DNA of 44,375 nucleotides from a virus. The notes beneath the pieces were generated by a model. It saw nothing but the letters and a program-made list of their open reading frames with translations, had not been told where the DNA came from and searched no databases. Numbering within the stretch: position 1 is the stretch's first letter; each line of letters starts with the position of its first letter. Position numbers and translations under genes: made by a program. Below, in pieces: positions 1-44,177 of this stretch. Where the stretch lies: positions 1 through 44,375 of the IMG/VR virus record IMGVR_UViG_3300019766_000014, one strand, 5' to 3'.

Positions 1-162
1 CTTTACTCAACAAGCGGAAGAGGAAGTATAAAAATAGGTACAGGAGCAGTTCCAAAAATAAGAGGATCATTAGGAGATTATTTAGAAATATTAATACAAG
101 ATGATTTATCAGGACTAGAAACATTTAGTATTAAAGTACAAGGACACTTGGAGGAATTATGA
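1..162 (+). CDS. Partial phage protein upstream of the first baseplate module (C-terminal 53 residues)
   Basis: An open frame enters from before position 1 and ends with TGA at 160-162. The visible tail is beta-rich and glycine/isoleucine-rich and ends in GHLEEL. By position, just before the GP46/gp47/gp48-like genes, it could be the end of a hub, spike or tube-associated protein, but the fragment is too short to assign. Its stop overlaps the next start in an ATGA arrangement, so the two are translationally coupled. Partial gene; function unknown. Confidence 0.6.
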   Translation, partial: LYSTSGRGSIKIGTGAVPKIRGSLGDYLEILIQDDLSGLETFSIKVQGHLEEL

Positions 163-365
163 TAAAAATAAAACATTTTAGCTTATATGAAAATATACTA
201 ATAATAAATAGGAAATACAGGTTTAAAAATCCACAAGTTATAATTAGAACTTGGTATGGAATAAAAATAATAAGTGGTAAAACATTTAGATTTTATACTT
301 TTAATGATAAAATAAGAAAAGAAATATTAGAAGATTTAAAATTAAATGAAATAATAAAAAGGTAA
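159..365 (+). CDS. Small basic hypothetical protein (68 aa) in the first baseplate module
   Basis: ATG at 159 has a strong GGAGG ribosome site just upstream and overlaps the preceding stop by 4 nt. The product is rich in Lys, Ile and aromatic residues with no signal peptide or clear membrane segment. It lies 3 nt before the GP46-like gene and belongs to the same operon. I do not recognise a family. A small baseplate accessory is possible from location only. Confidence 0.6.
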   Translation: MIKIKHFSLYENILIINRKYRFKNPQVIIRTWYGIKIISGKTFRFYTFNDKIRKEILEDLKLNEIIKR

Positions 366-368
366 GTT

Positions 369-785
369 ATGGCAGATATATATTTAACAAAAAAAGATTT
401 AGATGAAATTGATATCTTTTTTGATATTGGATTAGATGGAAATAATTTAATACAAGATGATAGTATTCGCACAGCTACACTTATATCTATTTTTACAGAT
501 GGAAGCAAACCACAAGTTGGAAAGCAAATAGATGGTAAAATTTTAGGAAATAAATACTATAATATAAATAAATTAAGTCAAGATAATGTAAAATTATATA
601 CACAGGGTTTATATGATGCTTTACAATGGCTTATAGATGATAGTATAGTTAATAATATCGATATTATTAATGAGAAAATAGGTAATAGATTAAATACAGT
701 AATTACATTTACTTTGGATAGCGAGAATACAATTAATGTTATATTTAATCTTGATGAAAAAATGAATATCTTAGATGAGGTGTAA
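369..785 (+). CDS. Mu GP46-like baseplate wedge protein
   Basis: The 138-residue product has the layout of the phage GP46 family (Mu gp46, functionally related to T4 gp25). An early segment reads TATLISIFTDG, followed by a central LYTQGLYDALQWLIDD helix and a beta-rich end. Such proteins join gp47 and gp48 to build the wedge around the tail hub. The typical GWWGD segment of Mu gp46 is not conserved here. It sits directly before the gp47-like gene, as in Mu, which supports the call. Confidence 0.72.
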   Translation: MADIYLTKKDLDEIDIFFDIGLDGNNLIQDDSIRTATLISIFTDGSKPQVGKQIDGKILGNKYYNINKLSQDNVKLYTQGLYDALQWLIDDSIVNNIDIINEKIGNRLNTVITFTLDSENTINVIFNLDEKMNILDEV

Positions 786-787
786 AA

Positions 788-1834
788 GTGGCAAATACAA
801 TATTAGAGATTAAAAATAGAGTTTATAACGATTTAGTAGTAAGCTTTAAAAATGCAATTACCCCTTTAAAAAAATCAGTATTTGAAACTTTTAGTTATGC
901 TATTGCTTCATCTATAAAACTACTATATGTATATTTAGATAAGATACAAGCAGATAGTTTTTTGACTACTTGCACAGATTCAAGAGTAAGAAATTATTTT
1001 GCACCTTTAAAAAATATAGCAATAAAAGAAGCTACAAGCTCAACAGGTACTGCTAGATTTATTGGTATAGATGGAAGTGACATACCAATAGATACAATTA
1101 TAATTTATAACGATTATGAATTTATCACAACAACATCAGGGACTATTGGAGATGTAGCTACTGGATATGTTGATATAGTTTGTAAATCAGTTGAAAAAGG
1201 CACTCTATACAATACACTAGAAAATATTAGCTTAGTTTTATCAAGTCCAATAGTTGGTGTTGAAAATGAAGTTATAAGCTCAACTGGATTTACTGGTGCA
1301 ATAGACGATGAGAGTATAGACAGTTTAAGAACTAGAACAAAACAAAAATTTGCAAGTCCTACAAATATAGATAATGACTTCTTTTATAAATCAACAGCTT
1401 TAGAGCTACCAAATGTTAAAGCTGCATTTATAAGTGATTTAAAGCAAGGTATAGGAACAACAGGAATAACAATACTAACTTTTAGTAATAGTGGTGTTCC
1501 AATACAAGCTGATATAGATACATTAGAAGCTTATTTTTTAGAAAAAAAAGCAATACCAACTTATGCAGGGTTTGAGTTCTTTTTACCAACAATAATAAGT
1601 CAAGATTTAGAAATTCAATTAATTATAAATGATGATCAAAATCAAAAAAGAATAGAAAATTTAGTAAGAACTTATTTATATTTATTTGTAAAGCCAAATA
1701 CTACATTTAAGTTTAAGCCATTAAACGACTTATTACAGTCAAATGGTGCTAGATTAAATAGTCCTTTATCTTCATTTGAGATAGAATTACAATCAGATGA
1801 GATTATAGATGTGGGAGCTATAACTTGGCCTTAA
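788..1834 (+). CDS. Baseplate J-like (Mu gp47-like) wedge protein
   Basis: 348 residues, starting at a GTG two nt after the previous stop. It has the hallmarks of the Baseplate_J family. The N-terminal helical region is followed by a repeated beta module (TGTARFIG, GTIIYNDYEF-like). A DDESIDSLRTRTKQKF segment matches the family's E-S-xx-xR-xR signature. The C-terminal part contains a QNQKRIENLVRTYL-type helix. It is a wedge component linking hub and sheath contraction. The end overlaps the TTG start of the gp48-like gene by 10 nt. A second, dissimilar J-like gene lies at 40765-41943. Confidence 0.85.
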   Translation: MANTILEIKNRVYNDLVVSFKNAITPLKKSVFETFSYAIASSIKLLYVYLDKIQADSFLTTCTDSRVRNYFAPLKNIAIKEATSSTGTARFIGIDGSDIPIDTIIIYNDYEFITTTSGTIGDVATGYVDIVCKSVEKGTLYNTLENISLVLSSPIVGVENEVISSTGFTGAIDDESIDSLRTRTKQKFASPTNIDNDFFYKSTALELPNVKAAFISDLKQGIGTTGITILTFSNSGVPIQADIDTLEAYFLEKKAIPTYAGFEFFLPTIISQDLEIQLIINDDQNQKRIENLVRTYLYLFVKPNTTFKFKPLNDLLQSNGARLNSPLSSFEIELQSDEIIDVGAITWP

Positions 1835-2436
1835 AATTCAAAAATCTATTAAAATCATTTTTACCAAAAGGTAGAGCGTGGGAAGAACAACCACAAATAG
1901 ATAAACTATTAAGTGGTTTTAGTGATGAATTTGGAAGACAATACGATAAAGATACTAAATTTTATCAAGATTTTAACATTATAAAAAGCTCAAATCTAGC
2001 TATAGAACATTCACAAGACTATCTAATAGTTCAAGGATTATACTCAAATAGAGAGCTTCAAAGAATAATAGTAGAATATCTAAATAAAGATTATCAATAT
2101 ATGGAAGCAATAGAAGATTTTGCTAACTTTATAGGAGTTCCAATAGCTTTTATAAATTTTCCATTGCCACTAGAGTTTGGAAGAATGCAATTTGGCGATG
2201 AATTTGGAGACCCACTCGCAGAGCCATACACAGATTTATATATAGATTTAAACTTTAGCGGAGATATAACTTGTAGAGATTATAATAAAATCCAATGGTT
2301 AGCAAAATTTTTAAAGCCACCATATATAAGATTAACCTTTACGAATCCACCAAATAATGCTATACTACCATTTGAATTTGGTTTTAATCAGTTTGGCGAT
2401 GATTTTGGTAATCTTATAGATTGTGAATTAAATTAA
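1825..2436 (+). CDS. Mu gp48-like (DUF2313) baseplate protein
   Basis: 203 residues, probably starting with TTG at 1825 because GGGAGC lies seven nt upstream and no good ATG is near. The N-terminus LLKSFLPKGRAWEE is the classic opening of the DUF2313/gp48 family (L-LPpGrAW). The C-terminus carries two copies of an EFGxxQFGDxFG motif, around residues 114-124 and again near 185-195. Such proteins complete the wedge and attach fibres. Its place between gp47-like and fibre genes matches Mu. Confidence 0.82.
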   Translation: MALKFKNLLKSFLPKGRAWEEQPQIDKLLSGFSDEFGRQYDKDTKFYQDFNIIKSSNLAIEHSQDYLIVQGLYSNRELQRIIVEYLNKDYQYMEAIEDFANFIGVPIAFINFPLPLEFGRMQFGDEFGDPLAEPYTDLYIDLNFSGDITCRDYNKIQWLAKFLKPPYIRLTFTNPPNNAILPFEFGFNQFGDDFGNLIDCELN

Positions 2437-2450
2437 AAGTAGGAGTAAAA

Positions 2451-3479
2451 ATGAAGAAGTTTTTAGAGATAGACGGTGGTAATCCAGATGGAACAGCAAA
2501 AGATAGAGATGGATTAAATCCCGGCACTACATATTTTGCTAAATATTGGAATGATAATATGTTTAACTTGTTTGAGTTTATACAAACACAAGGATATACA
2601 TTAATAGATGCAGATTCAGATAGTGCAGGACTAGAACAAATAGCTAAAGCGTGTAAGGCAAAATATAATCCTAATTATACATATAATACAAGTACAATAG
2701 TTACTCAGTCAGTAAATGATATAGTAGAGGGTAGCGATGGAGCATTTTATGAGGTACAAAATGATGGAGTGACTGGAGATGATCCAGTAGGAAGTGTTAC
2801 AGGAAACTGGGTTAAAGTACCTTTTGACAAAGGATACTCAGATACTAAACTATTCTCAATAGCAGGTGGAACAGCAAACGCACTAACAGTAACTATTCCA
2901 GCTATAACAGAGTATGCAGTAAATAGCACATTTAGAGCTAAGGCAACTTTAGACAATACAGGTGCAACAACAATTAATCTAAACGGTTTAGGTGTTAAAA
3001 ATGTAGTTATAGACAACACTGCTTTATCAGGTGGGGAAATTGTAGCAGGTAATGAATACTTTTTTACATACTCATCAAATGGTAATTTTGAGCTAACTGC
3101 ATTAGGTAGTGATATAGAAGTCGCAACAGATACAGAGATAAGAACTGGAACAAATAACACTAAAGCAATAACTCCACTTGGATATAATCAAACTACTTTA
3201 GGATGGGGTCAAACTTGGCAAAATGTAACAGCTAGTAGGAGTGCTGGGGTTACTTATACCAATACTACTGGTAAGCCTATTGAAATGATTGTTTTAGTTG
3301 CAAGGAGTAGCAACATAATACCATCATTTACAATAGACGGTATAGATTTATTATCTGGATATAACGATGCTAATTCTCAAGTAGCTATGTTTAGTTTTAT
3401 AGTTCAGGATGGGAAAACATATAACTTTTCGCTAAGTGCAGGTTCAACTATTTTTAGATGGTTAGAATTAAGACAATAA
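2451..3479 (+). CDS. Tail fibre protein 1 (Mu/P2-type baseplate)
   Basis: 342 residues. The N-terminus (FLEIDGGNPDGTAKDRDG, then NDNMFNLFEFIQ) should be the baseplate-docking part. The middle, residues 131-217, is the segment shared with the second fibre at 42615-43784. The C-terminus has the GWGQTWQNVT-type tip domain common in phage and prophage fibres, with a TTGKPIEM stretch. It is followed after 8 nt by its chaperone. Role inferred: host receptor binding. The exchange of N-terminus with retention of the shaft suggests modular evolution. Confidence 0.8.
   Translation: MKKFLEIDGGNPDGTAKDRDGLNPGTTYFAKYWNDNMFNLFEFIQTQGYTLIDADSDSAGLEQIAKACKAKYNPNYTYNTSTIVTQSVNDIVEGSDGAFYEVQNDGVTGDDPVGSVTGNWVKVPFDKGYSDTKLFSIAGGTANALTVTIPAITEYAVNSTFRAKATLDNTGATTINLNGLGVKNVVIDNTALSGGEIVAGNEYFFTYSSNGNFELTALGSDIEVATDTEIRTGTNNTKAITPLGYNQTTLGWGQTWQNVTASRSAGVTYTNTTGKPIEMIVLVARSSNIIPSFTIDGIDLLSGYNDANSQVAMFSFIVQDGKTYNFSLSAGSTIFRWLELRQ
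2841..3099 (+). repeat. Intragenomic fibre repeat, copy A (partner 42969-43227)
   Basis: A 259-bp segment inside fibre 1 matches a 259-bp segment of fibre 2 in the same orientation with roughly nine in ten bases identical by eye and no gaps. It encodes the repeat region AGGTANALTVTIPAITEYAV onwards. Flanking sequence differs, so the homology is a block exchange or conserved domain rather than whole-gene duplication. Confidence 0.9.
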
Positions 3480-3487
3480 GGATAAAA

Positions 3488-3955
3488 ATGAGAAAAATAT
3501 ATTTAACAAATAACGGATTACAAGAGATATTAGAGGGTCAAGACTTTTTAATTAAAGATGATTGGGTTAAGTGTGAACTTAAAGAAGATGGTACACCATA
3601 TACTTACTATAATGAAGATGGTACACCTGATTTAGTAGAGGAAGCGAAAGATGAAGCTAATAAGACATATAATGAAAAATGGAATCTAGTATCAGAATAC
3701 TTAATAAATGATATACCAAATATTTCAAACACATTAATTGGTGGGGAAGTTCACGAATTTATTGTTAAAGGAAGCAATATAGATAGTATTAAAAATATTG
3801 CAATTAGCCCATCAAGTCAAGACACAACTTATGAATGGGTACAGTTAGGAATACCGACTTTTCAAACAACAAAAGCAGAACTTAGCATTATTTTAATGGA
3901 ATATGAAAAATTACAACAAGCTAAAATAAATGAAATTTTTGGATTAGGAGTATAG
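3488..3955 (+). CDS. Tail fibre assembly chaperone-like protein 1
   Basis: ATG at 3488 is preferred over an upstream in-frame start because AAGGA lies just before it and the second copy at 43794 starts with the same residues. The first roughly 45 residues (MRKIYLTNNGLQEILEGQDF...) are nearly identical to that copy. The rest, including a coiled-coil-like end, is different. Position directly after the fibre is typical of tail fibre assembly (Tfa/gpG-like) proteins, which help fibre trimerisation. 155 residues. Confidence 0.65.
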   Translation: MRKIYLTNNGLQEILEGQDFLIKDDWVKCELKEDGTPYTYYNEDGTPDLVEEAKDEANKTYNEKWNLVSEYLINDIPNISNTLIGGEVHEFIVKGSNIDSIKNIAISPSSQDTTYEWVQLGIPTFQTTKAELSIILMEYEKLQQAKINEIFGLGV

Positions 3956-3956
3956 A

Positions 3957-4289
3957 ATGTCACACTTAATAATTTCAGTATCACAAACAGATATATTTCA
4001 AGAAGATTTCGGAATAACTCTTGACTTTGAGAAAGAATTTTCAGAGTTTGATTTTGTAGGTAAAGAGGATTTTTTACAATTCCTAATAAGTGAAAAATAT
4101 GTAGTTTTTAATGATGCTACAAAACCACATATGCCAAAAGGTATAGTAATATATGAACTAAAATCATTTCCAAACGAAAGACTTGTACTAAAAGAAGGAA
4201 GTATATATCAGAGTAATGTAGGAGAGGGAAACTATACATCTGATACTTGGGTAGTTGAAGAATGGGATATTTTAGTACGAGGGGCATAA
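3957..4289 (+). CDS. Hypothetical acidic protein after fibre module 1
   Basis: 110 residues, starting one base after the previous stop. It is acidic in the first half (EDFGITLDFEKEFSEFDFVGKEDF) and has a beta-rich end, SDTWVVEEWDILVRG. No membrane segment or known motif is seen. The operon position between a fibre chaperone and membrane proteins could fit a fibre accessory or a lysis accessory. I do not recognise the family. Confidence 0.6.
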   Translation: MSHLIISVSQTDIFQEDFGITLDFEKEFSEFDFVGKEDFLQFLISEKYVVFNDATKPHMPKGIVIYELKSFPNERLVLKEGSIYQSNVGEGNYTSDTWVVEEWDILVRGA

Positions 4290-4290
4290 A

Positions 4291-4602
4291 TTGAGTATAG
4301 AATATATAAATACAATAAATTTAACACTACATTATGCCATAATGACATCAAAATTATATTTAATGTATATAGTTATTATGAATATAAGCACTATAAAAAC
4401 ACCAAATAGTGATAAATTAATGAGTATATATTCTCCATTAAGTGTGTTTATTATTTTATTTACGATAGTATATATTATTGCAGAGTTGAATTTTATAATA
4501 CTATTTGATAAAGATTTGTTTTTATATTATTATGAATTTATGGCAATGCTAGACCAAATAATATTTACTATACTAATTGCAAAAAACTTTAAGAAAGGAT
4601 AA
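4291..4602 (+). CDS. Multi-pass membrane protein, holin candidate
   Basis: 103 residues with a TTG start supported by GAGGGG six nt upstream. Three hydrophobic stretches are visible, near residues 17-30, 50-72 and 85-97, separated by short polar loops. The tail KNFKKG is positively charged. Small size and location before coiled-coil membrane and DUF5675 genes make a lysis role plausible. No family recognised, and the gene at 5459 is an equally good or better holin candidate. Confidence 0.55.
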   Translation: MSIEYINTINLTLHYAIMTSKLYLMYIVIMNISTIKTPNSDKLMSIYSPLSVFIILFTIVYIIAELNFIILFDKDLFLYYYEFMAMLDQIIFTILIAKNFKKG

Positions 4603-4605
4603 AAA

Positions 4606-4680
4606 ATGGCAAAGACTAGAAGCGGTAGAAAAAGCAGTACAACTAGTACAAAGACAAGAACAAGAACAGGTAAAAAATAA
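4606..4680 (+). CDS. Very basic 24-residue Thr/Arg/Lys/Ser peptide
   Basis: ATG at 4606 has AAGAAAGGA ten nt upstream, and the stop overlaps the next ATG (TAATG). Almost every residue is Lys, Arg, Ser or Thr, with the pattern MAKTRSGRKSS then alternating T-K/R. This resembles small basic phage peptides found near fibre or lysis genes, but no function is known to me. Expression is supported only by the ribosome site and tight packing with its neighbours. Confidence 0.5.
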   Translation: MAKTRSGRKSSTTSTKTRTRTGKK

Positions 4681-5012
4681 TGGAAAACGCTGGATTAATA
4701 ATTCAAATAGGGCTACTTATTGCTTCTATAATAACAGCATTTATAACAGCAAAAGTAACTATTAGTAATCTAGTTAAAACACAAGAGTCGCAAGACAAAA
4801 AAATAGCTGTAAATGATGTAGGTTTAAAAGATATGGAGCTAAAACTTCAATCTAAAATTTCATACGAACACGCTGATAAAAGGTATGTTACAAAAGAAGA
4901 ATTAAACCTACATCTTAAAAATATAGAACTAAAACAACAAAGAGGTATTGATAAAACTGATGATGTTTTAGAGATATTAAAAGAATTAAAAAGTCAAATG
5001 AAAAGTAATTAA
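4680..5012 (+). CDS. Membrane-anchored coiled-coil protein (XhlA/spanin-like architecture)
   Basis: 110 residues. An N-terminal membrane helix (about residues 5-26, LIIQIGLLIASIITAFITA) is followed by a long charged helical region with a coiled-coil pattern to the C-terminus. The topology resembles phage holin accessory proteins such as XhlA or i-spanin-like proteins. Start overlaps the preceding peptide gene by one base. Role in lysis is inferred from architecture and neighbours, not from a signature. Confidence 0.6.
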   Translation: MENAGLIIQIGLLIASIITAFITAKVTISNLVKTQESQDKKIAVNDVGLKDMELKLQSKISYEHADKRYVTKEELNLHLKNIELKQQRGIDKTDDVLEILKELKSQMKSN

Positions 5013-5022
5013 AATATATATT

Positions 5023-5457
5023 ATGAACATAGTTAGTTTAGTTAGATTTGAAAATACAGAACAAGGCACATTTGGACTAATCTCAATTAATGGTATATGT
5101 TTCCACTCTTTAGAGCTTCCATACAAAGACAACAAAGCAAACATAAGTTGTATTCCTACTGGGGAATATATTTGTAAAATAAGATATTCCCCATCATTTA
5201 AAAGAAATTTATATTGCTTACAAAATGTAAAAGATAGAAGCTACATTTTAATACACGGTGCAAACTTTGCAGGGGATAAGTCAAAAGGTTATCAAACACA
5301 TTTAGCAGGTTGTATCGCTTTAGGTAAAAGTAAAGGTGTAGCAAATAATAAGTTTGGAAACAAACAAAGGTGTATCTTTAATTCTCAACAAGCATTAAGA
5401 GAGTTTATGGATATTACAGATAATGAAGATTTTAAGTTAATAATTACGGAGGTATAA
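5023..5457 (+). CDS. DUF5675-family protein, possible endolysin-associated enzyme
   Basis: 144 residues. The middle reads CIPTGEYICKIRYSPSF, then YILIHGANFAG and THLAGCIALG, the HGAN...GCI pattern of DUF5675. It recalls the His/Cys spacing of L,D-transpeptidase (YkuD) folds, but catalytic activity is unproven. Related proteins are common next to phage holins, and the next gene here is holin-like, so cell-wall processing at lysis is the best guess. No clear Shine-Dalgarno sequence precedes the ATG. No signal peptide, so export would need the holin. Confidence 0.72.
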   Translation: MNIVSLVRFENTEQGTFGLISINGICFHSLELPYKDNKANISCIPTGEYICKIRYSPSFKRNLYCLQNVKDRSYILIHGANFAGDKSKGYQTHLAGCIALGKSKGVANNKFGNKQRCIFNSQQALREFMDITDNEDFKLIITEV

Positions 5458-5458
5458 G

Positions 5459-6097
5459 ATGGAGTTTTTAACAAGTTTATTAGGCGATGGTTTAACTGGT
5501 GGGTTATTTGGTATATTAGGTGGTTTAGGTACTGCGTGGATTAAATACAAACATCAAGAGAAAGAACATCAATACAAACTGGAAGAGAATAAAAGCAAAC
5601 GAGAACACCAATTAAAAATGATAGGTGCTGAAACTGAAGCAAGTATAAAAGAGATTGAAGCTAATGTTAGACGAGATGAAATCATTATGGAGGGTAAAGC
5701 CGATATAGAAGAAAGTAAAGGTAGAAACGAAGCAGTAGTTAAACTAAGTGAAAACTATATCAAAGACTCACTTATAGAGCGTATGATGTTTAATAGCAGC
5801 AAGATAACTAAATGGTTTACATTGCCTTTGGCTTTACTTATAACATTGATACATAGTACAATAGATATGATGAGAACTCTAGTAAGACCACTTATAACTT
5901 ATGCTAGTGTAGGATTTACTTGCTATGTAACTTATTTAACTTTTGAAATATATCAAAAATTAGGTATTTCAATAGATAGCAGCGACTTATTAGTTATAAT
6001 AAAAGATATGCTTAAATTACTTACTTTTATTACAAGTACAGCGGTATCATTTTGGTTTATGGATAAATCAATGAGTAGAAAGTTTCAAGATAAGTAA
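5459..6097 (+). CDS. Three-TM holin-like protein
   Basis: 212 residues. A glycine-rich hydrophobic N-terminus is followed by a highly charged helical stretch (roughly 30-105). Three membrane helices then lie near 118-137, 138-160 and 172-198, and the end is WFMDKSMSRKF. This resembles the 3TM holin family of gene-transfer agents and tailed phages, where pores release endolysin. It starts one base after the DUF5675 stop with a GAGG site. The stop abuts the stop of the minus-strand gene at 6098 with no gap. Confidence 0.7.
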   Translation: MEFLTSLLGDGLTGGLFGILGGLGTAWIKYKHQEKEHQYKLEENKSKREHQLKMIGAETEASIKEIEANVRRDEIIMEGKADIEESKGRNEAVVKLSENYIKDSLIERMMFNSSKITKWFTLPLALLITLIHSTIDMMRTLVRPLITYASVGFTCYVTYLTFEIYQKLGISIDSSDLLVIIKDMLKLLTFITSTAVSFWFMDKSMSRKFQDK

Positions 6098-6328
6098 CTA
6101 AGCTAACTCATCAAGCAAAAGTCTAGTCATTAACTTAATGGCTTCGCTTTTGCTATATTCCACACATCTATCAATAGTCACAAAGTTATCAAACTTCAAA
6201 TGACATACATAAGTTTTACCATTAATAGTATGCTCCCCCATAATATAATCCCCAACTATCGTAACATTACGAGTGCAAAAGTTATTATTGGTTATTGCTT
6301 CATCTAGTGTTCTGTAGTGTTTTAACAT
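6098..6328 (-). CDS. Hypothetical protein (76 aa) co-transcribed with YopX
   Basis: Reads leftward from ATG at 6328, with AAAGGA a few nt upstream. It overlaps the YopX stop by 7 nt. The product has a beta-rich centre (VTIVGDYIMGEHTINGKTYVCHL) and a helical end. No known family recognised. Its stop meets the holin stop tail to tail with zero spacing. Confidence 0.6.
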   Translation of the reverse strand: MLKHYRTLDEAITNNNFCTRNVTIVGDYIMGEHTINGKTYVCHLKFDNFVTIDRCVEYSKSEAIKLMTRLLLDELA

Positions 6329-6738
6329 TTGTTATCCTTTAATAGTTCTGGATTTTCGTATATGTTTCCTATCACTTCACAATTATTTATGACCCATTCA
6401 GCAGTTTGCGGGTCGTTTATAGGCTCTTGATAACTTCTCATAATACCATCGTTTAAATAGCATTTATAAAATAAGCATAATCCACCATAGTTATTATAGT
6501 CTATAACACCTACCCAATCTTTACTATTGCTATCGAGTTTGTCTGCTTTTAGTATATCATTGTGGTAAATATCTTTTCCTTTTTTGTCTTTTAATCCAGT
6601 ATATTGCATAACAACAAACTCATCGCTTTTTAACATATTTCCAAAAGCCCATTTATCATTACCTATATGATTTTGGATATTTGGTAACATCTCACTATAT
6701 TTTGCCCACGCTCTAAATTTTAATCTAGAATTTTCCAT
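6322..6738 (-). CDS. YopX family protein
   Basis: 138 residues matching the phage YopX family. The N-terminus LKFRAWAKYSEML is followed by QYTGLKDKKGKDIYHNDIL and the end VIGNIYENPELL, three segments that define the family. YopX proteins are widespread in phage early regions; their molecular role is unknown. Transcribed divergently from the early operon, with AAGGAAG before the ATG. Recognition by conserved motifs is strong. Confidence 0.88.
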   Translation of the reverse strand: MENSRLKFRAWAKYSEMLPNIQNHIGNDKWAFGNMLKSDEFVVMQYTGLKDKKGKDIYHNDILKADKLDSNSKDWVGVIDYNNYGGLCLFYKCYLNDGIMRSYQEPINDPQTAEWVINNCEVIGNIYENPELLKDNKC

Positions 6739-6832
6739 TTTACTTCCTTTATATTTTTCTTACTCTAATCTTACAACACAAAACAAAATAAGTAAACAAT
6801 ATAACCATAATAAAACAACAAATTTAAACTAA

Positions 6833-6915
6833 TGTAACTTTTTGTAACTTCAAACAAATATTTTAACTATTTCATCTACTCATTATATACTTATTAGTAA
6901 ATTGTATGTTATAGT
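6833..6915 (+). promoter_or_regulatory. Early promoter with tandem GTAAC boxes
   Basis: Two copies of TGTAACTT start at 6833 and 6843, exactly one helical turn apart. A -10-like TGTTATAGTT has its hexamer TATAGT at 6910-6915. The second GTAAC starts 66 bp before the hexamer. The same architecture recurs at 10311, 16124 and 20882. The downstream gene starts at 6938. There is no clear -35 box, consistent with activator use or with promoters of low-GC Campylobacterota. Confidence 0.6.
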
Positions 6916-6937
6916 TATTCTGTTGAAAGGGAGTAAT

Positions 6938-7144
6938 ATGGTTAAAGTAATTATTACAATAAATGGTATTTTTCATAATTCATTTGATAGCGAACAAACA
7001 GCGTATTATCATTATGGAGTTTTAAAGTGTAATCCAAAGTTAAAGAATATACGACTTCATAAGTTATGGGATAAAGCGTTTGACTATTATATGGAAAATG
7101 GAAAAGATTACGAGTTTATTTTAAGAAATGAACTTATAGGATAA
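6938..7144 (+). CDS. Small early protein (68 aa), unknown function
   Basis: The ATG at 6938 is chosen over an upstream TTG because GAAAGGGAG precedes it and the promoter hexamer at 6910-6915 would lie inside a longer version. The product starts MVKVIITINGIFHNSF and has a Tyr/His-rich centre. It heads the early operon. No family recognised. Confidence 0.6.
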   Translation: MVKVIITINGIFHNSFDSEQTAYYHYGVLKCNPKLKNIRLHKLWDKAFDYYMENGKDYEFILRNELIG

Positions 7145-7154
7145 AGGAAAGAAA

Positions 7155-7364
7155 ATGGAAAGAGAAGATTATTTACAACATTGCAAAGAAAGAGCTTTAC
7201 AAGAAAATGATATACATAGTATGTGGGCTTCATTTCACAATGATATGTCAAAACACGATGAACTAAAAGACCATATAGCTTTAAATTTAGGAATGTCTTT
7301 GTTAGCTAGTGGAATTTGGAAAACAAAAGAAGACTGTGAGAAGTTTATAAACGGTTTTAATTAG
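7155..7364 (+). CDS. Conserved small phage protein (MxREDYLQHCKERALQ type)
   Basis: 69 residues. The opening EREDYLQHCKERALQ, then ASFHNDMSKHDE, GMSLLASG and the end FINGFN follow a pattern I know from many phage early genes of unknown function. All-helical prediction. AAGGAAAG lies upstream of the ATG. No catalytic motif seen. Confidence 0.65.
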   Translation: MEREDYLQHCKERALQENDIHSMWASFHNDMSKHDELKDHIALNLGMSLLASGIWKTKEDCEKFINGFN

Positions 7365-7388
7365 TAATAAAAAGATAAAGGAAATAAA

Positions 7389-7598
7389 ATGGAAGTAGAA
7401 ATTATAGAAGAAAAACACGATGGAGAAATTCTTTATAAATGTAAACTAAATGGTAAAGAATCTTTTTGTTTATTTGAAAGAGAATACGAAGCTTTAGTAT
7501 ATGCTGGTTTAATGGCAAGTGGAATAAGCAAAAATGATTGTAGCTATTTTTCTAAGTATATAAATAGTTCATTGTATACATTAAAAAAAGGAGAGTAG
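7389..7598 (+). CDS. Hypothetical early protein (69 aa)
   Basis: Good ribosome site (AAAGGAAA) before ATG at 7389. The sequence is mixed beta then alpha, with Cys at positions 18, 27 and 46 that do not form a zinc pattern. Stop is followed one base later by the next start. Not recognised. Confidence 0.55.
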   Translation: MEVEIIEEKHDGEILYKCKLNGKESFCLFEREYEALVYAGLMASGISKNDCSYFSKYINSSLYTLKKGE

Positions 7599-7599
7599 T

Positions 7600-7797
7600 A
7601 TGCCAAAAATAGAATTTGATTATGAAGATAACAGATACAACAACGCACTACAACAATTCATCAATGAAACTCAAAAAAATACTGAAAACATAAAGTGTGA
7701 AGTTGGAGAGATTAAAGCTATACAGAAAAGACTAGAGAATGAGTTTGATGTTAGTTTGGAAGATGATTATAAAGATATGATAAAGGAAGTGATATGA
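7600..7797 (+). CDS. Hypothetical acidic helical protein (65 aa)
   Basis: GGAGAG precedes ATG at 7600. It is acidic, with a likely coiled coil around residues 18-50 (QQFINETQKNTENIKCEVGE). The stop overlaps the next ATG. Not recognised; its place just before ERF may reflect a recombination-accessory role, which is only inference. Confidence 0.55.
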   Translation: MPKIEFDYEDNRYNNALQQFINETQKNTENIKCEVGEIKAIQKRLENEFDVSLEDDYKDMIKEVI

Positions 7798-7889
7798 GTG
7801 AATTAGATTGGTTGATGGATAAAGATTACAAGTTTGAAACAATTACTATTTATAAAAATGGTACTAAAACAATAATAAGGGGTAAGTGA
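7794..7889 (+). CDS. Tiny ORF (31 aa) before ERF
   Basis: ATG at 7794 overlaps the previous stop and AAGGAAG lies upstream. The peptide has an acidic, aromatic N-terminus and a basic end (KTIIRGK). Its stop TGA overlaps the ERF start ATG at 7889. It is too short to assign, but the coupling on both sides supports translation. Confidence 0.5.
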   Translation: MSELDWLMDKDYKFETITIYKNGTKTIIRGK

Positions 7890-36455: not shown

Positions 36456-36577
36456 CGACTTTAAAAGAATTACAAAATGATTATAATTTAGAGGATACTT
36501 TGATAATGTATGATATAATTATAGTTAATAAAATGAATGAGTATCAAGCTCATAAAGAAGCAAATAAAAAAGGATAG
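36446..36577 (+). CDS. -1 frameshift extension of the tail chaperone (T part)
   Basis: The -1 frame is open for a long way upstream and continues past the zero-frame stop to TAG at 36575-36577. It adds about 42 residues (IATLKELQNDYNLEDTLIMYDIIIVN...), helical and chaperone-like. There is no good independent start. Six A residues (36447-36452) directly before the stop offer a P-site slip on AAA. Equivalent to gpG-gpGT of lambda-like tails. Confidence 0.6.
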   Translation, partial: EKIATLKELQNDYNLEDTLIMYDIIIVNKMNEYQAHKEANKKG

Positions 36578-36580
36578 ATT

Positions 36581-38113
36581 ATGGTATTAGATGTATTTAC
36601 AATATTGTTTGAAGCTGATACCTCTACCCTTGAAAAAGGCACTAAAAAATCAGAGCAAGAAGCAGGTAAACTTAATAAGAAATTAAAAGAGACAGATAAA
36701 CTAGCCGATAATGTTGGTAACAATTTAAAAGACTTATTAGCTACTGGGTTAGGTGCTTTAACCGCTATTGCTTCATTTGGTGGTATAGTTAGCGGTGTTA
36801 TGGGGGTCGCTAACTATAGTGATGAACTAGCAAAAAATAGCCGACTACTTGGCGAAAATATGAATGACTTAGCAGCTTATCAAGATTTAGCAACTAAATC
36901 TGGTGGGAGTGCTGATGGTTTAACAAATGTATTTAAAAATCTTAATACACAAATAGCAGAGTTTCAAACTACAGGTAACACTGGGGCTTTACCTTACTTT
37001 CAAAAATTAGGTATATCAATGCTAGACGCTGAGGGAAAAGCTAGAAAAGTTAGCGATATACTTCCTGAATTAGCTTCAAGTTTTGAAAATATGTCAAAAG
37101 TTGAGAGTGCTGGAATAGGTGCTAAGTTAGGACTTGATGAGGGAACAATTACTTTACTACAACAAGGTAGAAAAGAATTTGACTTACAAATAAAAAAACA
37201 AAAAGAACTTTTTAGCATAACAGAAGAACAAGCTGCAACTAGCGAAAAGTTTAATGATGCTATAGATGATTCAAAAGTAGCTTTTAGAGGGTTATTTTTA
37301 ACATTAAGTGGCTCAATACTTCCAGCTTTAAGATGGCTATTAGATAAGTTCCAAACTATTATAGTATTCTTAAGAAAAAACAAAGACTTAGCTAAGGGAA
37401 TATTTATTGCCTTAGGTGTTGCTATTGCTACTTTTGTAATACCTGCTTTATACAAAATGGCTGCGGCTAGTATTATTGCATTTGCTCCATTTTATGCAAT
37501 AGGTGCAGTAGTTGCTGGATTAGTTGCATTATTTGCTTTATTGTATGATGATGTAATTGCTTTTCTAAGTGGTGGGGATAGTGCCTTTCAATCGTTATTA
37601 GAATATATGGGATTAACAGCTGACGAAATAGAAGCAGTTAAAGAAGCCTTTAAGTCGTTTGGGGATTTCGTTTTATATATGATTGACTTAATAGCTGATG
37701 GATTTGCATTATTAGGTCAAGGAATTATAGCAATTTTTAAAGGTGTGTTTAGTGTAGTAGAGCCTATTATTAAAGGACTACTAACAATAATAAAAGAAGT
37801 AATAAGCGGGATATCAACAGCTATTGACGCAGTTGGAAGCGTAGGAAACTTTGTAAGCGGTGGAATAGATGCAGTCTCAAACTTCTTTGGTGGAAATAAT
37901 GAAACTCCACAAGCTATACAAGTAGCAAATGCAAATCCTCTTAACTCAATGAACACATCAAATAACAACACAAGCAAAAGTATTAAAATTGATAAGATAG
38001 AAGTCGTTACACAAAGCACAGACCCACAAGCGATAGCAAATGAGTTTAATAGGTCACTAAGCGAACAAGTAGCAAATGCAAATAATAACTTTGATGATGG
38101 AGTGTTAGGATAA
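36581..38113 (+). CDS. Tape measure protein
   Basis: 510 residues. N-terminal coiled helices (TLEKGTKKSEQEAGKLNKKLKE), then the conserved TMP segment YSDELAKNSRLLGENMNDLAAYQDLATKSGGSADGL. A hydrophobic membrane-like domain follows around 270-325, then glycine-rich helices. It sets tail length; 510 residues imply a short to medium contractile tail. Directly after the frameshifted chaperone. Confidence 0.9.
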   Translation: MVLDVFTILFEADTSTLEKGTKKSEQEAGKLNKKLKETDKLADNVGNNLKDLLATGLGALTAIASFGGIVSGVMGVANYSDELAKNSRLLGENMNDLAAYQDLATKSGGSADGLTNVFKNLNTQIAEFQTTGNTGALPYFQKLGISMLDAEGKARKVSDILPELASSFENMSKVESAGIGAKLGLDEGTITLLQQGRKEFDLQIKKQKELFSITEEQAATSEKFNDAIDDSKVAFRGLFLTLSGSILPALRWLLDKFQTIIVFLRKNKDLAKGIFIALGVAIATFVIPALYKMAAASIIAFAPFYAIGAVVAGLVALFALLYDDVIAFLSGGDSAFQSLLEYMGLTADEIEAVKEAFKSFGDFVLYMIDLIADGFALLGQGIIAIFKGVFSVVEPIIKGLLTIIKEVISGISTAIDAVGSVGNFVSGGIDAVSNFFGGNNETPQAIQVANANPLNSMNTSNNNTSKSIKIDKIEVVTQSTDPQAIANEFNRSLSEQVANANNNFDDGVLG

Positions 38114-38616
38114 TGGCAACAGAAGTAATAGGAATTTATGATAATAATTTTAACGCTTTATTTCAAGAAGCTAAATATATAAAAGCAAGTGTATCAGATA
38201 CATCAATGATATTTGAACACCCTTTAGAAGATGGAAGCAAAATTGCTGATTATAAAGTATCTAATCCTATTGAGATACAATTACAAATTATGTTATTGGG
38301 TGCTGATTATAGAAATACTTACAAGGCTATTAAAAAGATAGATACAAACGCAACAGCCTTGACAATTCAAACTAGAACAGATGTATATTCAAATATGTAC
38401 ATATCTAGTATGCCTTATGAAGAGGATAACACTATTTCAGATGGTATAAAAATTGCAATATCTTTAAAACAAGCTTTGTTTGAAAATCCAAATACTGTAA
38501 GAACTGCAATAGACCCGAGATATTCTAAAGACTCAAACACATCAAGAAATGGTAATGTTCAAGGCGAAAATGTAAACGATACCAAAAGACAATCTATATT
38601 AGCGAGTTTATTATGA
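38113..38616 (+). CDS. Dit-like baseplate hub protein
   Basis: 167 residues. IYDNNFNALFQEAKYIKASVSDTSMIFEHPLEDGSKIADYKVSNPIEIQLQIML is the phage Dit-like family opening. Forms a ring at the tube tip in E217/Pam3-type phages. The start overlaps the tape-measure stop by one base. Confidence 0.8.
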   Translation: MATEVIGIYDNNFNALFQEAKYIKASVSDTSMIFEHPLEDGSKIADYKVSNPIEIQLQIMLLGADYRNTYKAIKKIDTNATALTIQTRTDVYSNMYISSMPYEEDNTISDGIKIAISLKQALFENPNTVRTAIDPRYSKDSNTSRNGNVQGENVNDTKRQSILASLL

Positions 38617-38909
38617 TAAAAGTACCTATACAAGCAATACCAAATCAAGAAATAACATATCAAAATGGGGATAATATCTATATAATAGAATTAAGAACAG
38701 TTGATTTAAACAATACTTTAGTGGCTACAATAACATTAAATGACGAAACTATTATAAGTGGATTGATAGTAAATCCTTTTGCTAAGTTAATGCCATATAG
38801 TTATGGAAACAATTTTATATTTACTACACAAGATAACGAACTTATTAATTATGAACATTTTAATGATACGCAAGAGTTATTTTTTTTAGAAGATGGTATT
38901 GATTTATGA
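38613..38909 (+). CDS. Baseplate plug protein (Pam3 gp18-like)
   Basis: 98 residues, beta-rich: QEITYQNGDNIYIIELRT and MPYSYGNNFIFTTQDNELINYEHFNDTQELFFL. This matches small plug proteins in this gene order (Dit, plug, hub). Overlaps both neighbours by four bases. Confidence 0.72.
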   Translation: MIKVPIQAIPNQEITYQNGDNIYIIELRTVDLNNTLVATITLNDETIISGLIVNPFAKLMPYSYGNNFIFTTQDNELINYEHFNDTQELFFLEDGIDL

Positions 38910-39727
38910 TTGATGATAGAGTTTTAAGAGTTGGTATTGAGCTTGATGGAGTAGTTAAGTATTTTGAAACTGTAAATATAAAAGCTAGTGGATCAAAAAC
39001 TAACAACTCAACACAAAACGAGTTTAACATATCAATCACAAATTTATCAAAAGAAACAAGAGATTATATATTAACAAACAATAATATACTTAATCGTAAA
39101 TTAAAAAACAAAAGAGTTACTATCGAAGCAGGGCGTAAGAGTACGGGATTAAGTCTTATATTTAGTGGAGATATTAGAATGGTTAATACGACTCAACCGC
39201 CTGATATTACTATCAACATTAAAACATATACGGGGGATAGCTTCAAGAGTGATTTAATAAGTACCTCAACTGGTGCAAATACCAAACTATCTCAAATATG
39301 TCAAATAGTAGCTAATTCACTTAATAAGAAATTAACTTTTCAAGCAACAGATAAAAGCATTGCTAACTATTCTTTTACTGGTGCAAAATTAGAACAAGTA
39401 AAACGATTAGAAGATTTAGGGGGTATTGATGTAACTATTGATAATGATACTATGGTAGTTAAAAATCAAGACTTACCACTTAATGGAAATGTAGTATTAA
39501 TAAATTCAAATACTGGAATGATAGGACTACCTGCAATAAATGAGAGAGGAATATCTGTTAAAACTTTATTTAACAATAATGTTAAAGCTGGTACAATTAT
39601 GAGAGTAAGAAGTGAAATAAATCCTGCATTAAATGGGGATTATGTAGTTTATGAAATTAGATACGATTTAGCTAATAGAGATACTCCATTTTACACAACT
39701 TTTGAGGGAACTAAATATGAAACCTAG
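38906..39727 (+). CDS. Baseplate hub protein (gp27/gp44-like)
   Basis: 273 residues. LRVGIELDGVVKYFETVNIKASGSKTNNSTQNEFNISITNLSKETRDYILT and TYTGDSFKSDLIST, then GKTIMRV-like beta sheets at the end (AGTIMRVRSEINPALNGDYVVYEIRYDL), match the hub of E217-like phages. It trims the tail tube to trimeric symmetry and binds the spike. Confidence 0.82.
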   Translation: MIDDRVLRVGIELDGVVKYFETVNIKASGSKTNNSTQNEFNISITNLSKETRDYILTNNNILNRKLKNKRVTIEAGRKSTGLSLIFSGDIRMVNTTQPPDITINIKTYTGDSFKSDLISTSTGANTKLSQICQIVANSLNKKLTFQATDKSIANYSFTGAKLEQVKRLEDLGGIDVTIDNDTMVVKNQDLPLNGNVVLINSNTGMIGLPAINERGISVKTLFNNNVKAGTIMRVRSEINPALNGDYVVYEIRYDLANRDTPFYTTFEGTKYET

Positions 39728-40409
39728 TATCAAACCTGCTGATAATTCATCTATAACAGGACTACTTAAAACTACACAAGATAGAACAAGTAGAAACATT
39801 GAAAAAATGTTACCTGCGAGAGTGATTAATTTTGATAGAGCTAAAAATCGTGTAACAGTTCAACCACTTATAAGAGTAATGGGGACAGATGGAAACGCAA
39901 TAAGTAGAAATCAATTATTTTCAATTCCTGTATATAATCCTAGTGGTGGGGGGTTTGGTGTATATGTTCCTTTAGTAGCTGGTAATTTAGGGTGGATACA
40001 CGCTAACGATAGGGATATATCCTTATTTTTACAAAGCTATTCAGAATCAAATCCAAACACAACACGAAAACATCTATTTAGTGACGCTATATTTTACCCT
40101 GATTTAATGACTGGATTTAGTATCGATGGGGAAGATACCGCAAATTTAACTATACAAAATAATGACGCAAGTGTTAAGATTACTTTAAGCAATGATACAA
40201 TTAAAATAAAAGCTCCAAACATTATAAGTGAGTGTGAAAATTTTACAGTAAACTCAACAAACTTTACAGTAAATGGAGATAATGCTTCATTTAATACTGA
40301 TACTATGGTAAGTAATGGAATAGATATAAGTAACACACACGGACACCCACAAGGTGCGGATAGTGATGGAGATTCTCAACAAGATACAGGAACACCAAAA
40401 ACGGTATAA
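39717..40409 (+). CDS. Baseplate spike protein (gp138/gpV-like)
   Basis: 230 residues from ATG 39717 (GAGGGA eight nt upstream). An OB-like N-terminal domain (PARVINFDRAKNRVTVQPLI...) leads to a repetitive beta-helix (ITLSNDTIKIKAPNI, NFTVNSTNFTVNG). An apex NTHGHPQGADSD (206-217) follows with H208 and H210, the metal-binding HxH of membrane-piercing spikes. The end TGTP is also typical. Confidence 0.88.
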   Translation: MKPSIKPADNSSITGLLKTTQDRTSRNIEKMLPARVINFDRAKNRVTVQPLIRVMGTDGNAISRNQLFSIPVYNPSGGGFGVYVPLVAGNLGWIHANDRDISLFLQSYSESNPNTTRKHLFSDAIFYPDLMTGFSIDGEDTANLTIQNNDASVKITLSNDTIKIKAPNIISECENFTVNSTNFTVNGDNASFNTDTMVSNGIDISNTHGHPQGADSDGDSQQDTGTPKTV

Positions 40410-40418
40410 GGAATAAAT

Positions 40419-40772
40419 ATGACAATATCAATTAACGAAAAAAACGACTTATTTTTAAACGATGAAGCGAATATGAACTTATCTTATGATATAGATGATG
40501 TATTACAAAATTGTCAAACAGCAGTACAAACAACTTTAGGGGAAGCTATTTATAAAAAAAATATTGGTGTACCTGCTTTTCAAACTTTATGGAATGGAAG
40601 CCCAAATTTTCAACAAGCCGAAGCAAGTATCAGAGCTACAATTTTAAATGTAGAGGGTGTAATTAATATAAATTATTTTAATTATGTTGTAAACAATAAT
40701 ATTTTTAGCTATAATACAGAAATAGAAACTATTTTTGGCACACAAACTTTGGAGAACACAATAAATGTATGA
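40419..40772 (+). CDS. gp25-like baseplate wedge protein
   Basis: 117 residues. DVLQNCQTAVQTTLGEAIYKKNIGVPAFQTLW and the acid-rich central IRATILNVEGVININYFNY match gp25-like wedges. Partner of J and DUF2612. Overlaps J by 8 nt. Contrasts with the GP46-type wedge at 369. Confidence 0.82.
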   Translation: MTISINEKNDLFLNDEANMNLSYDIDDVLQNCQTAVQTTLGEAIYKKNIGVPAFQTLWNGSPNFQQAEASIRATILNVEGVININYFNYVVNNNIFSYNTEIETIFGTQTLENTINV

Positions 40773-41943
40773 TTATATAAACAATAGCGGTGTAATAATA
40801 GCAGACACTAGCGACATATTATCAGAGATTGAAAGCGAATATAAAACAGCTTTTAATGACCAAAGTTTAGTAACAACTCCAGACACTCCACAAGGTGCAT
40901 TAATAGTAAGCGAAACAATCGCAAGAACTTCACTAATAGCAAATAACGCAAAATTAGCAAATCAAATAAACCCTGAATATGCAGGGGGGATTTTTTTAGA
41001 TGCTATAGGTATGCTAACAAACTTAAAAAGAACAGAAGCAACTAGAACAACTGTAACAGCTACAATTACAGGACAAAGTGGAACAATAGTTTTAGCAGGT
41101 AGTCAAGCAAAAAGCGGAAACAACTTATTTGAAGTTGTGAACGATACTACTATTCCAGTTAGTGGAACGATAGATACTCAATTTCAATCGGTAGAATTAG
41201 GGGCTATTCCTTGCCCTGCTGGAACATTAACACAAATAGAAACAGAAGTTTTAGGTTGGGAAACTGTAACAAATGCAGAAGCTGGGATATTAGGAAAATC
41301 AACTCAAAGCGATTTGGTATTTAGAAGATTAAGAAAAGAAACTTTAGCAAATCAAGGTGTAGCTATTCCATTTGCTATTAAGTCAAATGTTCGTTTAGTC
41401 GAGGGAGTAAATAGTTTATCATTTTTAGAAAACATAGCTTCTACAACTGAAACTATACAAGGTATTGAGATGAATCCACATAGTATATTTTTATGTATTG
41501 ATGGTGGAAGTGATGAAGATATAGCATTTGCACTTTACAATTCTAAGACTTTAGGGTGCGATTATAATGGGGATGTTGATGTAACTATTAATCCACAAGA
41601 TAGTGATGCTCCATATACTGCAACTTTCAAAAGACCCAACTTAGTAGATATATACATAAATGTAACTGCTAAAGTAACTGGAACTGGTACGGATCCTATA
41701 ACAACAGTTAAAAATGCAATATTAGATTATGCAAATGGAGTTACAGAAGAATCAGGTTTCACAGTTGGAAACAATGTATCTAGTTTTGAACTAAGTGCAA
41801 GTTTAGCAGCACAAACAAATTATTTTATAACTAGCGTTGAAACTTCACTAGATAATATAACTTTTGATTCATCTACTAAGACAATAGCACTTGACGAAAA
41901 GGCTCAAACATTTGCGAGTTATATTGAGGTTACTATACTATGA
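40765..41943 (+). CDS. Baseplate J-like protein (second set)
   Basis: 392 residues. DILSEIESEYKTAFNDQSLVTTPDTPQGALIVSETIAR and a GGIFLDAIGMLTNLKRTEATRTTVTATITGQSGTIVLAGSQAKSG segment are the classic J start. RRLRKETLANQGVA and a C-terminal SSFELSASLA follow. Wedge protein of the E217-like baseplate. Not similar in sequence to the 788 gene beyond family level. Confidence 0.9.
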   Translation: MYDYINNSGVIIADTSDILSEIESEYKTAFNDQSLVTTPDTPQGALIVSETIARTSLIANNAKLANQINPEYAGGIFLDAIGMLTNLKRTEATRTTVTATITGQSGTIVLAGSQAKSGNNLFEVVNDTTIPVSGTIDTQFQSVELGAIPCPAGTLTQIETEVLGWETVTNAEAGILGKSTQSDLVFRRLRKETLANQGVAIPFAIKSNVRLVEGVNSLSFLENIASTTETIQGIEMNPHSIFLCIDGGSDEDIAFALYNSKTLGCDYNGDVDVTINPQDSDAPYTATFKRPNLVDIYINVTAKVTGTGTDPITTVKNAILDYANGVTEESGFTVGNNVSSFELSASLAAQTNYFITSVETSLDNITFDSSTKTIALDEKAQTFASYIEVTIL

Positions 41944-42590
41944 GTAAAATTCAAGATTTCACATTTAGTGCTAATTTATTAGAGTCTTTACTTTGGCAAT
42001 ATAACGAAGCGGAAACATTACAAAGCATATTACAACAAAAACAAGACTGGTACGATTTAAACTTTAGTCAATTTTGGGATGATTGGTACAATGATGTTTT
42101 TAATTTACAAACTGCAAATAACTTTGGTTTAAGTGTATGGGCTAAGATACTTGATGTAAGTTTTGCTTTACCACCTCAACCAACTAGAGATAATAATGTT
42201 TTTGGATTTGGGGAGTTTAATAGCAACTTCTTTAATAGCAATTTTTCCCCAACTGGTGGAGATGATAACAGCTTATCGACTGAACAAAAAAGATTAGTCT
42301 TACAATTAACTTATCTTAAATATACAAGCAGAGGAACAGTACCAGATATAAACAAGATACTAACTTCTTATTTTGGTTTTAAGGCTTACATATTAGATAA
42401 CTTTAATATGACTGGAAATTATGTTATATTTAAGCAACAAGTAAATGAGCAAGATTTAGAAATAATAAAAGATTATGATTTAATTCCTAGACCATCAGGT
42501 GTGGGGATTGAATATAGAACAGTAACTGGAAATGAATTTGGATTCGACCCTTACGGTATGAATTTTTACAATGGATTTTTCGGTGCTTAA
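41940..42590 (+). CDS. DUF2612 baseplate protein
   Basis: 216 residues. LLESLLWQYNEAETLQSILQQKQDWYDLNFSQFWDDWYNDVFNLQTANNFGLSVWAKIL matches DUF2612, with the conserved VFGFGEFN...NFS. It is the third wedge element (functional counterpart of gp48) and attaches fibres. ATGA overlap with J. Confidence 0.88.
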   Translation: MSKIQDFTFSANLLESLLWQYNEAETLQSILQQKQDWYDLNFSQFWDDWYNDVFNLQTANNFGLSVWAKILDVSFALPPQPTRDNNVFGFGEFNSNFFNSNFSPTGGDDNSLSTEQKRLVLQLTYLKYTSRGTVPDINKILTSYFGFKAYILDNFNMTGNYVIFKQQVNEQDLEIIKDYDLIPRPSGVGIEYRTVTGNEFGFDPYGMNFYNGFFGA

Positions 42591-42599
42591 ATTTAAAAA

Positions 42600-42626
42600 A
42601 GAAAGGATTTAATAATGGCAATAGAT
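42600..42626 (+). repeat. 27-nt exact start-region repeat, copy 2 (second fibre)
   Basis: Matches 34041-34067 exactly over the ribosome site, ATG and first codons. Could be a remnant of gene exchange or a favoured late translation start. Confidence 0.8.
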
Positions 42627-43784
42627 ATACCTGTAGTTTGGGCAACAGATGGAGACATCTCTACTATACCAACAACCACGCAACCAGATGGGAGTGCATC
42701 ATTTCAAGAGGGGTGGAGTGCTTTTTATCAACAAGACCCAGAAACTAGCCCAACAGCAAAAAGACTATCAAGAGCAAATTATAATTATTTGTTTAATTTA
42801 CTAACTGCAAATAGCAAAGAATTTGTATCTCAGGGTATTCCAAATCATATCGTAGATAAAGAATACAACGCTAACGATATGGTTAGAGGAACGGATGGAA
42901 AAAACTATAAAGCAATAGCAACAACTACAGAAGCTCCCCCTCACGCAGATTGGATAGAAGATAGTACAGATACTAAACTATTCGCTACAGCAGGTGGAAC
43001 AGCAAACGCACTAACAGTAACTATTCCAGCTATAACAGAGTATGCAGTAAATAGCACTTTTAGAGCTAAAGCAACTTTAGACAATACTGGTGCAACAACA
43101 ATCAATGTAAATGGTTTAGGTGCTAAAAATGTAGTTATAGGTAATACAGCTTTAAGCGGTGGGGAAATTGTATCAGGTAATGAATACTTTTTGACTTACT
43201 CATCAAATGGAAACTTTGAATTAACTGACTTTAATCAAGTTGAAACAACTTTGCCTACCTTTTTGGGTACAGCAACATTTACAGCAACGGATAATAAAAT
43301 AGTTATGACTGGAATTGTTACATCTTTAGGACTAGAAAAAGGGGATGTAATTCAATTTACAAGTGGTACAGATGCAACTAATGCAAAAATAAGAACAGTT
43401 GAAATAATTAATAGTGATGATGAAATTATTGTAAATTATGAACATAGTGGAAGTAGAGGGAATGGTTCATTAAAGCTAAGCGATCAATCTAGTATCTCTT
43501 GTACTGTTAAAAGATTATCTAAATGGTACAATGCTAGTGTTGGATTTGGACAAGAATGGGTTGATTTAACAGCTATTAGAAGCGTTGGTGTTGCAGTGAC
43601 TGATACTACTGGTAAGCCTATTGAAGTATTTTTATTTAGACCATTAAGTAGTACAGTTATTACAATAGACTCTGTAAGCGGTACATTAAACACATCAAGC
43701 ACTTCTGATATAAGTTTTATTGTACCTAACAATTCTAGTTATAGTGTAAGTAAGGCTGTTGCAACTTGGCTAGAACTTAGATAA
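42615..43784 (+). CDS. Tail fibre protein 2 (E217-type baseplate)
   Basis: 389 residues. The N-terminus IPVVWATDGDISTIP...GWSAFYQQDPETSPTAKRLSRANYNYL is a baseplate-binding domain unlike that of fibre 1. The region from about residue 119 to 205 is the shared repeat. An extra beta insertion (about 212-300) precedes a GFGQEWVDLT tip domain with TTGKPIEV. Fibre for receptor binding. Confidence 0.82.
   Translation: MAIDIPVVWATDGDISTIPTTTQPDGSASFQEGWSAFYQQDPETSPTAKRLSRANYNYLFNLLTANSKEFVSQGIPNHIVDKEYNANDMVRGTDGKNYKAIATTTEAPPHADWIEDSTDTKLFATAGGTANALTVTIPAITEYAVNSTFRAKATLDNTGATTINVNGLGAKNVVIGNTALSGGEIVSGNEYFLTYSSNGNFELTDFNQVETTLPTFLGTATFTATDNKIVMTGIVTSLGLEKGDVIQFTSGTDATNAKIRTVEIINSDDEIIVNYEHSGSRGNGSLKLSDQSSISCTVKRLSKWYNASVGFGQEWVDLTAIRSVGVAVTDTTGKPIEVFLFRPLSSTVITIDSVSGTLNTSSTSDISFIVPNNSSYSVSKAVATWLELR
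42969..43227 (+). repeat. Intragenomic fibre repeat, copy B (partner 2841-3099)
   Basis: Same-orientation match to 2841-3099 over 259 bp with no gaps. Differences are mostly in third codon positions or conservative changes, as expected for old exchange or selection on the protein. Confidence 0.9.
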
Positions 43785-43793
43785 GGAAATAAA

Positions 43794-44177
43794 ATGAGAA
43801 AAATATATTTAACAAATAACGGATTACAAGAGATATTAGAAGGTCAAGATTTTTTAATAAAAGATGATTGGGTTAAGTGTGAACTTAAAGAAGATGGTAC
43901 ACCATACAAAAATTATAATACAGATGGTACACCAGACTTAGATTTAGAAAATAAAGAAAATCGTATAGCTGAAATTAAAACATCTATAAGCGAAAAAGAA
44001 ACTTATCTATCTATCACAGATTGGATAACAGCTAAGTATAATGATGAGGTTACAATTTTAGCAACAATTTCAAAAGCTGATTTCGTTGCTAAATATCAAG
44101 AAGTTTATACTAATAGAGCAAATGTAAGAGATGAAATAAACACATTACAACAAGAGTTAAAGACATTAGAACAATGA
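43794..44177 (+). CDS. Tail fibre assembly chaperone-like protein 2
   Basis: 127 residues. The first roughly 45 residues match the chaperone at 3488 almost exactly; then a helical, coiled region (RIAEIKTSISEKETYLSITDWITAKY...) replaces its C-terminus. The shared start is likely the fibre-binding part. The stop overlaps the next ATG. Confidence 0.65.
   Translation: MRKIYLTNNGLQEILEGQDFLIKDDWVKCELKEDGTPYKNYNTDGTPDLDLENKENRIAEIKTSISEKETYLSITDWITAKYNDEVTILATISKADFVAKYQEVYTNRANVRDEINTLQQELKTLEQ

Follow-up and report, generated by a model that had tools for sequence, protein, structure and literature searches.

The contractile tails closest to those described here are of two kinds. In phage Mu, whose baseplate has been solved (9ki1), the wedge protein gp46 connects with the first ring of the sheath and the wedges touch the tube initiator (PMC11915804); one would therefore expect wedges of the Mu type to require a sheath and shaft of their own. 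A related wedge protein is found in the diffocin of C. difficile (8v3w), and the Mu-like phage SuMu encodes its distal tail in the order gp46-gp47-gp48-fibre-chaperone. The second kind is the E217-type (Pbunavirus-like) tail of the Pseudomonas phages E217 and Pa193 (8env, 9b45), in which a gp25-J-DUF2612 trio has the hub and spike upstream. Complete E217-type genomes of comparable kind are ~42-45 kb long and have one baseplate.

Two baseplate wedge sets in one viral record

The window analysed here covers all 44,375 bp of IMG/VR record IMGVR_UViG_3300019766_000014, a linear sequence without exact end repeats, in which nearly all genes lie on the plus strand. It contains two baseplate wedge sets of different types, a Mu-type set on the left (369-3955) and an E217-type set on the right (40419-44177), each including a fibre and a chaperone gene. 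A PF04865 profile search of the record found exactly two Baseplate_J genes, and every gene of both sets had an intact reading frame. The Mu-type distal tail (1-3955) is followed by small genes and lysis genes (3957-6097), two minus-strand ORFs (6098-6738) and a plus-strand early region (6902-23184) with Erf-, SSB- and NinB-like genes, a DnaB-like helicase, ParB, PAPS reductase/DUF3440 and HNH genes, some of these names coming from inspection of the sequence. Then come the terminase, portal, Mu-F, DUF2213, capsid and connector genes (23295-34053, plus strand), syntenic in E217-tailed relatives, and the E217-type tail from sheath to fibre and chaperone (34056-44177, plus strand). An earlier note had read this arrangement as one phage with two alternative baseplates or tails, and had listed a fusion, a neighbouring tailocin or an assembly join as alternatives. 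We consider it likely that, in this record, assembly or real recombination has linked the genome of an E217-type phage to the distal tail genes of a Mu-tailed phage or tailocin.

The window opens with the C-terminal 53 amino acids of a gene that is open at the window edge (1-159, plus strand); by its position this would be the spike gene gp45, and it had no PHROG or Pfam match even at E<=5. Wedge protein 1 (gp46/gp25-like; 369-785, plus strand) matches the baseplate wedge family phrog_180 (2.8e-10) and GP46 (PF07409), the latter with a score that falls below the curated cut-off (E=1.9e-5). For wedge protein 2 (gp47/Baseplate_J; 788-1834, plus strand; PF04865, 3.7e-29), the closest solved structures are Mu gp47 (9ki1, 3.5e-9) and then diffocin TRI-2 (1.3e-8), and SuMu gp47 is ~25% identical to it. 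A probable wedge protein 3 (1825-2436, plus strand) occupies the gp48/DUF2313 position and weakly matches phrog_203 (0.0033); its single-sequence fold had a mean pLDDT of 49, that is, no confident fold. With the fibre gene (2451-3479, plus strand; phrog_18834, phrog_26525) and a probable chaperone gene (3489-3955, plus strand), the set has the gene order of SuMu. The remaining tail parts, unlike in Mu and the diffocin, are absent from the record. When the left J was used as the sole query against viral and genome contigs, no relative was recovered, and the left set has no close kin in these collections.

In the case of the right set, wedge protein 1 (gp25-like; 40419-40772, plus strand; phrog_120, 3.6e-16) is followed by the Baseplate_J protein (40765-41943, plus strand), whose best match is E217 gp44 (8env, 9.4e-49), and by the DUF2612 protein (41940-42590, plus strand; PF11041, 8.5e-41), whose best match is E217 gp45 (3.4e-18). 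The fibre gene (42615-43784, plus strand; phrog_4900, phrog_26622) encodes an N-terminus that aligns with fibres of E217-type relatives, and a probable chaperone gene (43794-44177, plus strand) is homologous to the left copy; its use as a query in viral and genome contigs did not recover any relative. The record end cuts a phrog_9573 gene (44174-44375, plus strand; 1.2e-13), of which only the start is present, overlapping the chaperone stop. Upstream of the trio lie the tube, tape measure, hub and spike genes (35576-40409, plus strand) and the only sheath gene in the window (34056-35564, plus strand; phrog_205, 1.6e-53), which matches the E217/Pa193 sheath at ~1e-96. Thus, the sheath, J (gp44) and DUF2612 (gp45) are clear homologues of those of E217 and Pa193, whereas the window differs from these phages in its AT-rich genome, its fibre and the additional Mu-type set. 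As a separate observation, a 27-bp ribosome-site/start stretch is identical at 34041-34067, before the sheath gene, and at 42600-42626, before the right fibre gene.

The claim of the earlier note that the two wedge sets are of different lineage was borne out, its coordinates and frames being right and the two J proteins matching Mu gp47 and E217 gp44, respectively. Its naming of the left trio holds by profile and by the sequences of solved structures for gp46 and gp47, whereas gp48 is placed by position and the weak phrog_203 match. Similarly, each set does have its own fibre, and the name chaperone, for which neither small gene has a family match, is probable from position and from the homology of the two copies.

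Sheath, tube, tape measure, hub and spike occur once each, all on the right side, together with one head. The left genes could be a spare wedge set gained by an E217-type phage to form an alternative baseplate on its single tail shaft, as the cluster seen is exactly wedge, fibre and chaperone, and its fibre is homologous to the resident one. However, the Mu wedge contacts both the sheath and the tube initiator (PMC11915804) and the two J proteins are of separate lineages, which makes a fit to one shaft unlikely; in addition, the partial gene at the spike position suggests that the cluster goes on upstream. We therefore regard a spare wedge set as very improbable.

Related genomes carry a single baseplate

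The head-tail block of ~23 genes is syntenic in KLEP17-4 (a Pseudomonas phage, 43.6 kb), Lbo-JY16 (a Leptolyngbya phage, 41.7 kb) and IMG/VR relatives. KLEP17-4 and Lbo-JY16 are similar in genome size to the window and share its order of terminase, portal, MuF, DUF2213, capsid, and sheath to DUF2612 and fibre, but have one baseplate, unrelated early genes and a J protein that is 43-44% identical. Three of the IMG/VR relatives (~43.9-44.7 kb, one J match each) have 127-bp end overlaps and are thus apparently circular and complete, and a more distant relative of 39.9 kb (G018) also has one J match. Across 47 related viral records searched with PF04865, one match was found in 45, none in 2 and two in none, compared with two in the window; nor was a second J present within 10 kb at any of ~120 related loci, one of which has a single J broken into pieces. 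A single wedge set per genome is a regularity of the relatives, not a formal criterion, from which this record departs; it may comprise more than one genome. The ~40.2 kb from the left to the right chaperone contain a full phage gene complement. Judged by this gene content and span against the relatives, the stretch amounts to a nearly full E217-type phage.

These data bear directly on the possibility that a single genome of more than 50 kb carries two complete contractile tails or baseplates in tandem, with the Mu-type shaft in the stretch between the record ends and with either tail on one head, or a virion plus a tailocin-like particle. Such a genome would agree with the intact wedge sets and fibres, with a record that does not close on itself, and with fibres that have their own N-termini and common distal DNA, as would be the case if a phage retained two tails for the same receptor. 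Against it stand the absence of two J matches from all 47 relatives and of a second J at the ~120 loci, the fact that a second sheath or tube was not seen in the window, and our failure to find such a phage described in the open papers searched. We consider it unlikely; a genome that truly carried both tails would open a new way of switching host range or assembly. We also judge it rather unlikely that a single phage combines its one head with two unrelated complete contractile tail modules, Mu-type and E217-type, which share distal fibre DNA and allow tail switching; with one shaft, one head and no relative having more than one J match, the dual-baseplate phage of the earlier note gained no positive support, and its alternatives fit better.

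Two minor features of the head region are not part of this comparison. A minus-strand HNH/AP2-like endonuclease gene (28350-29012; name from sequence) sits inside the head cluster and is 47% identical over ~95 aa to a minus-strand gene of G018, and a minus-strand gene of 264 aa without a Pfam match (25176-25970) lies between the large terminase and portal genes.

Fibre homology and the origin of the left set

The two ends of the record share fibre and chaperone sequence. A 261-bp segment of the left fibre gene (2839-3099) is 91% identical at the DNA level to the right fibre gene (42967-43227), and the starts of the chaperone genes are 89% identical over 178 bp. The shared fibre DNA is distal, the N-termini of the two fibres being different, and exact matches between the ends reach at most 69 bp. 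These 89-91% identical segments make it probable that both tails come from one host's phage pool, and they point to an exchange of receptor-binding parts between two tails within that pool; the homology would also be a natural crossover site.

The sequence composition of the left end pointed, if weakly, to the first 2.4-3.9 kb as the foreign part. Codon use of the left wedge genes was a mild outlier (0.076, compared with a null 95th percentile of 0.068 from late gene subsets), and their tetranucleotide value was at the 95th percentile of late blocks when compared with late genes (0.378) and beyond all early blocks when compared with early genes (0.394). Early and late blocks also differ from one another, and the lysis genes are typical of both.

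We infer another genome as the source of the left set, and two related phages with tail-fibre sequence in common, joined in one record, are more likely than a single virus building two kinds of tail. In such a join, the sequence from the left fibre and chaperone (2.8-3.9 kb) to the right end would be one nearly complete ~40-kb phage with an E217-type contractile tail, and the first 2.4-3.9 kb would be the distal tail end (wedge trio, fibre and chaperone) of another element with a Mu-type tail, a phage or tailocin. Both elements would come from the same host pool and have in common the fibre/chaperone sequence, perhaps also lysis or early genes; each wedge set would be paired with its own sheath, tube and hub, and the fibres would confer related receptor specificity.

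We somewhat favour an assembly join through common sequence; the other option would be real recombination, such as one crossover within the homologous fibre DNA that yields a cointegrate. With k=127, assembly is unlikely to have made the join right at the fibre repeat, where the 69-bp longest exact match is too short, and we suppose that longer common sequence elsewhere would be needed. In one benchmark (PMC5610896), <5% of large contigs were chimeric, and since chimeras are uncommon, some room is left for a real recombinant or a dual-tailed phage. The window did not reveal a scar, stop or truncated gene marking a junction. A join inside common fibre, lysis or early DNA would leave no scar, so the packing of genes without a break, which the earlier note had stressed, is no argument for one phage. 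An exact search of IMG/VR contigs with the end sequences extended neither end of the record. Mainly, the record is a warning that unrelated tails with homologous fibres can give the false impression of a dual-tailed phage; in it, two unrelated contractile tails appear to have receptor-binding sequence in common within one host pool.

Lysis genes, early region and host

Behind the left chaperone and small genes lie a DUF5675 gene, probably the endolysin (5023-5457, plus strand; PF18925, 1.4e-25), and a probable holin/lysis membrane gene (5459-6097, plus strand; phrog_6637, 2.7e-13). The stop of the latter at 6097 adjoins, as first noticed, that of a convergent minus-strand ORF at 6098, one of two in 6098-6738, of which one is of the YopX family (PF09643, 2.3e-20). 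This layout raises the possibility that a prophage and either a second prophage or a tailocin cluster are neighbours in the host chromosome and were trimmed to one viral record: lysis genes would close the left set, and the minus-strand genes at 6098 would open a new early region. However, we saw neither an integrase or tRNA gene nor an attachment-like repeat or host gene anywhere in the window, in line with the earlier reading that no host gene or attachment-like junction separates the modules; Rfam and tRNA scans of the window were empty, and no terminator-like site was found in 1-8000. Moreover, the composition of the lysis genes is like that of the remaining window and, in a relative (G004), the endolysin-holin homologues sit directly behind the fibre of the E217-type tail, whereas in the window the fibre at this place is the Mu-type one. 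We regard adjacent prophages as quite improbable. Two tail modules presumably also lie side by side in the R/F pyocin cluster, which is like the window in layout only and, unlike it, is taken to lack head genes.

The holin-like gene follows the DUF5675 gene in the window and at two related loci (L011 and L221). Endolysin relatives (L011-L013) lack the tail genes of the window; therefore, taken alone, the lysis genes do not assign the left end to one phage. We also considered a transposable Mu-like phage as the source of the left half and set it aside, as lysis genes come after the tail and we recognised no MuA/MuB transposase or repressor among the proteins inspected, part of which went through profile scans, in a record that may be incomplete.

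A strong ribosome-site motif (AAAGGAAGTAAAATGGAA-like) recurs on both strands at 6716-6764, 7363-7394, 10403-10417, 10914-10929 and 20976-20995, and this recurrence over 6.7-21 kb ties the YopX gene to the early region. The DnaB-like helicase matches phages of Helicobacter and Sulfurimonas, with <35% identity in the listed matches, and the host is therefore probably a Campylobacterota bacterium, which we take as a lead only.

Finally, the early region contains a ParB - small gene - PAPS reductase/DUF3440 cassette (16232-18466), presumably IbrB/IbrA-like. In other viral contigs, its PAPS and ParB proteins are up to 82% and 86% identical in amino acid sequence, respectively, and the rest of those contigs mostly differs. 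The cassette was rejected as a lineage marker, since relatives carry it beside varied genes, and it looks mobile. G018 (L219/L220), a phage contig that also carries the cassette, runs out at each end into a tract of short tandem repeats, and hub and spike genes stand to either side of these ends.
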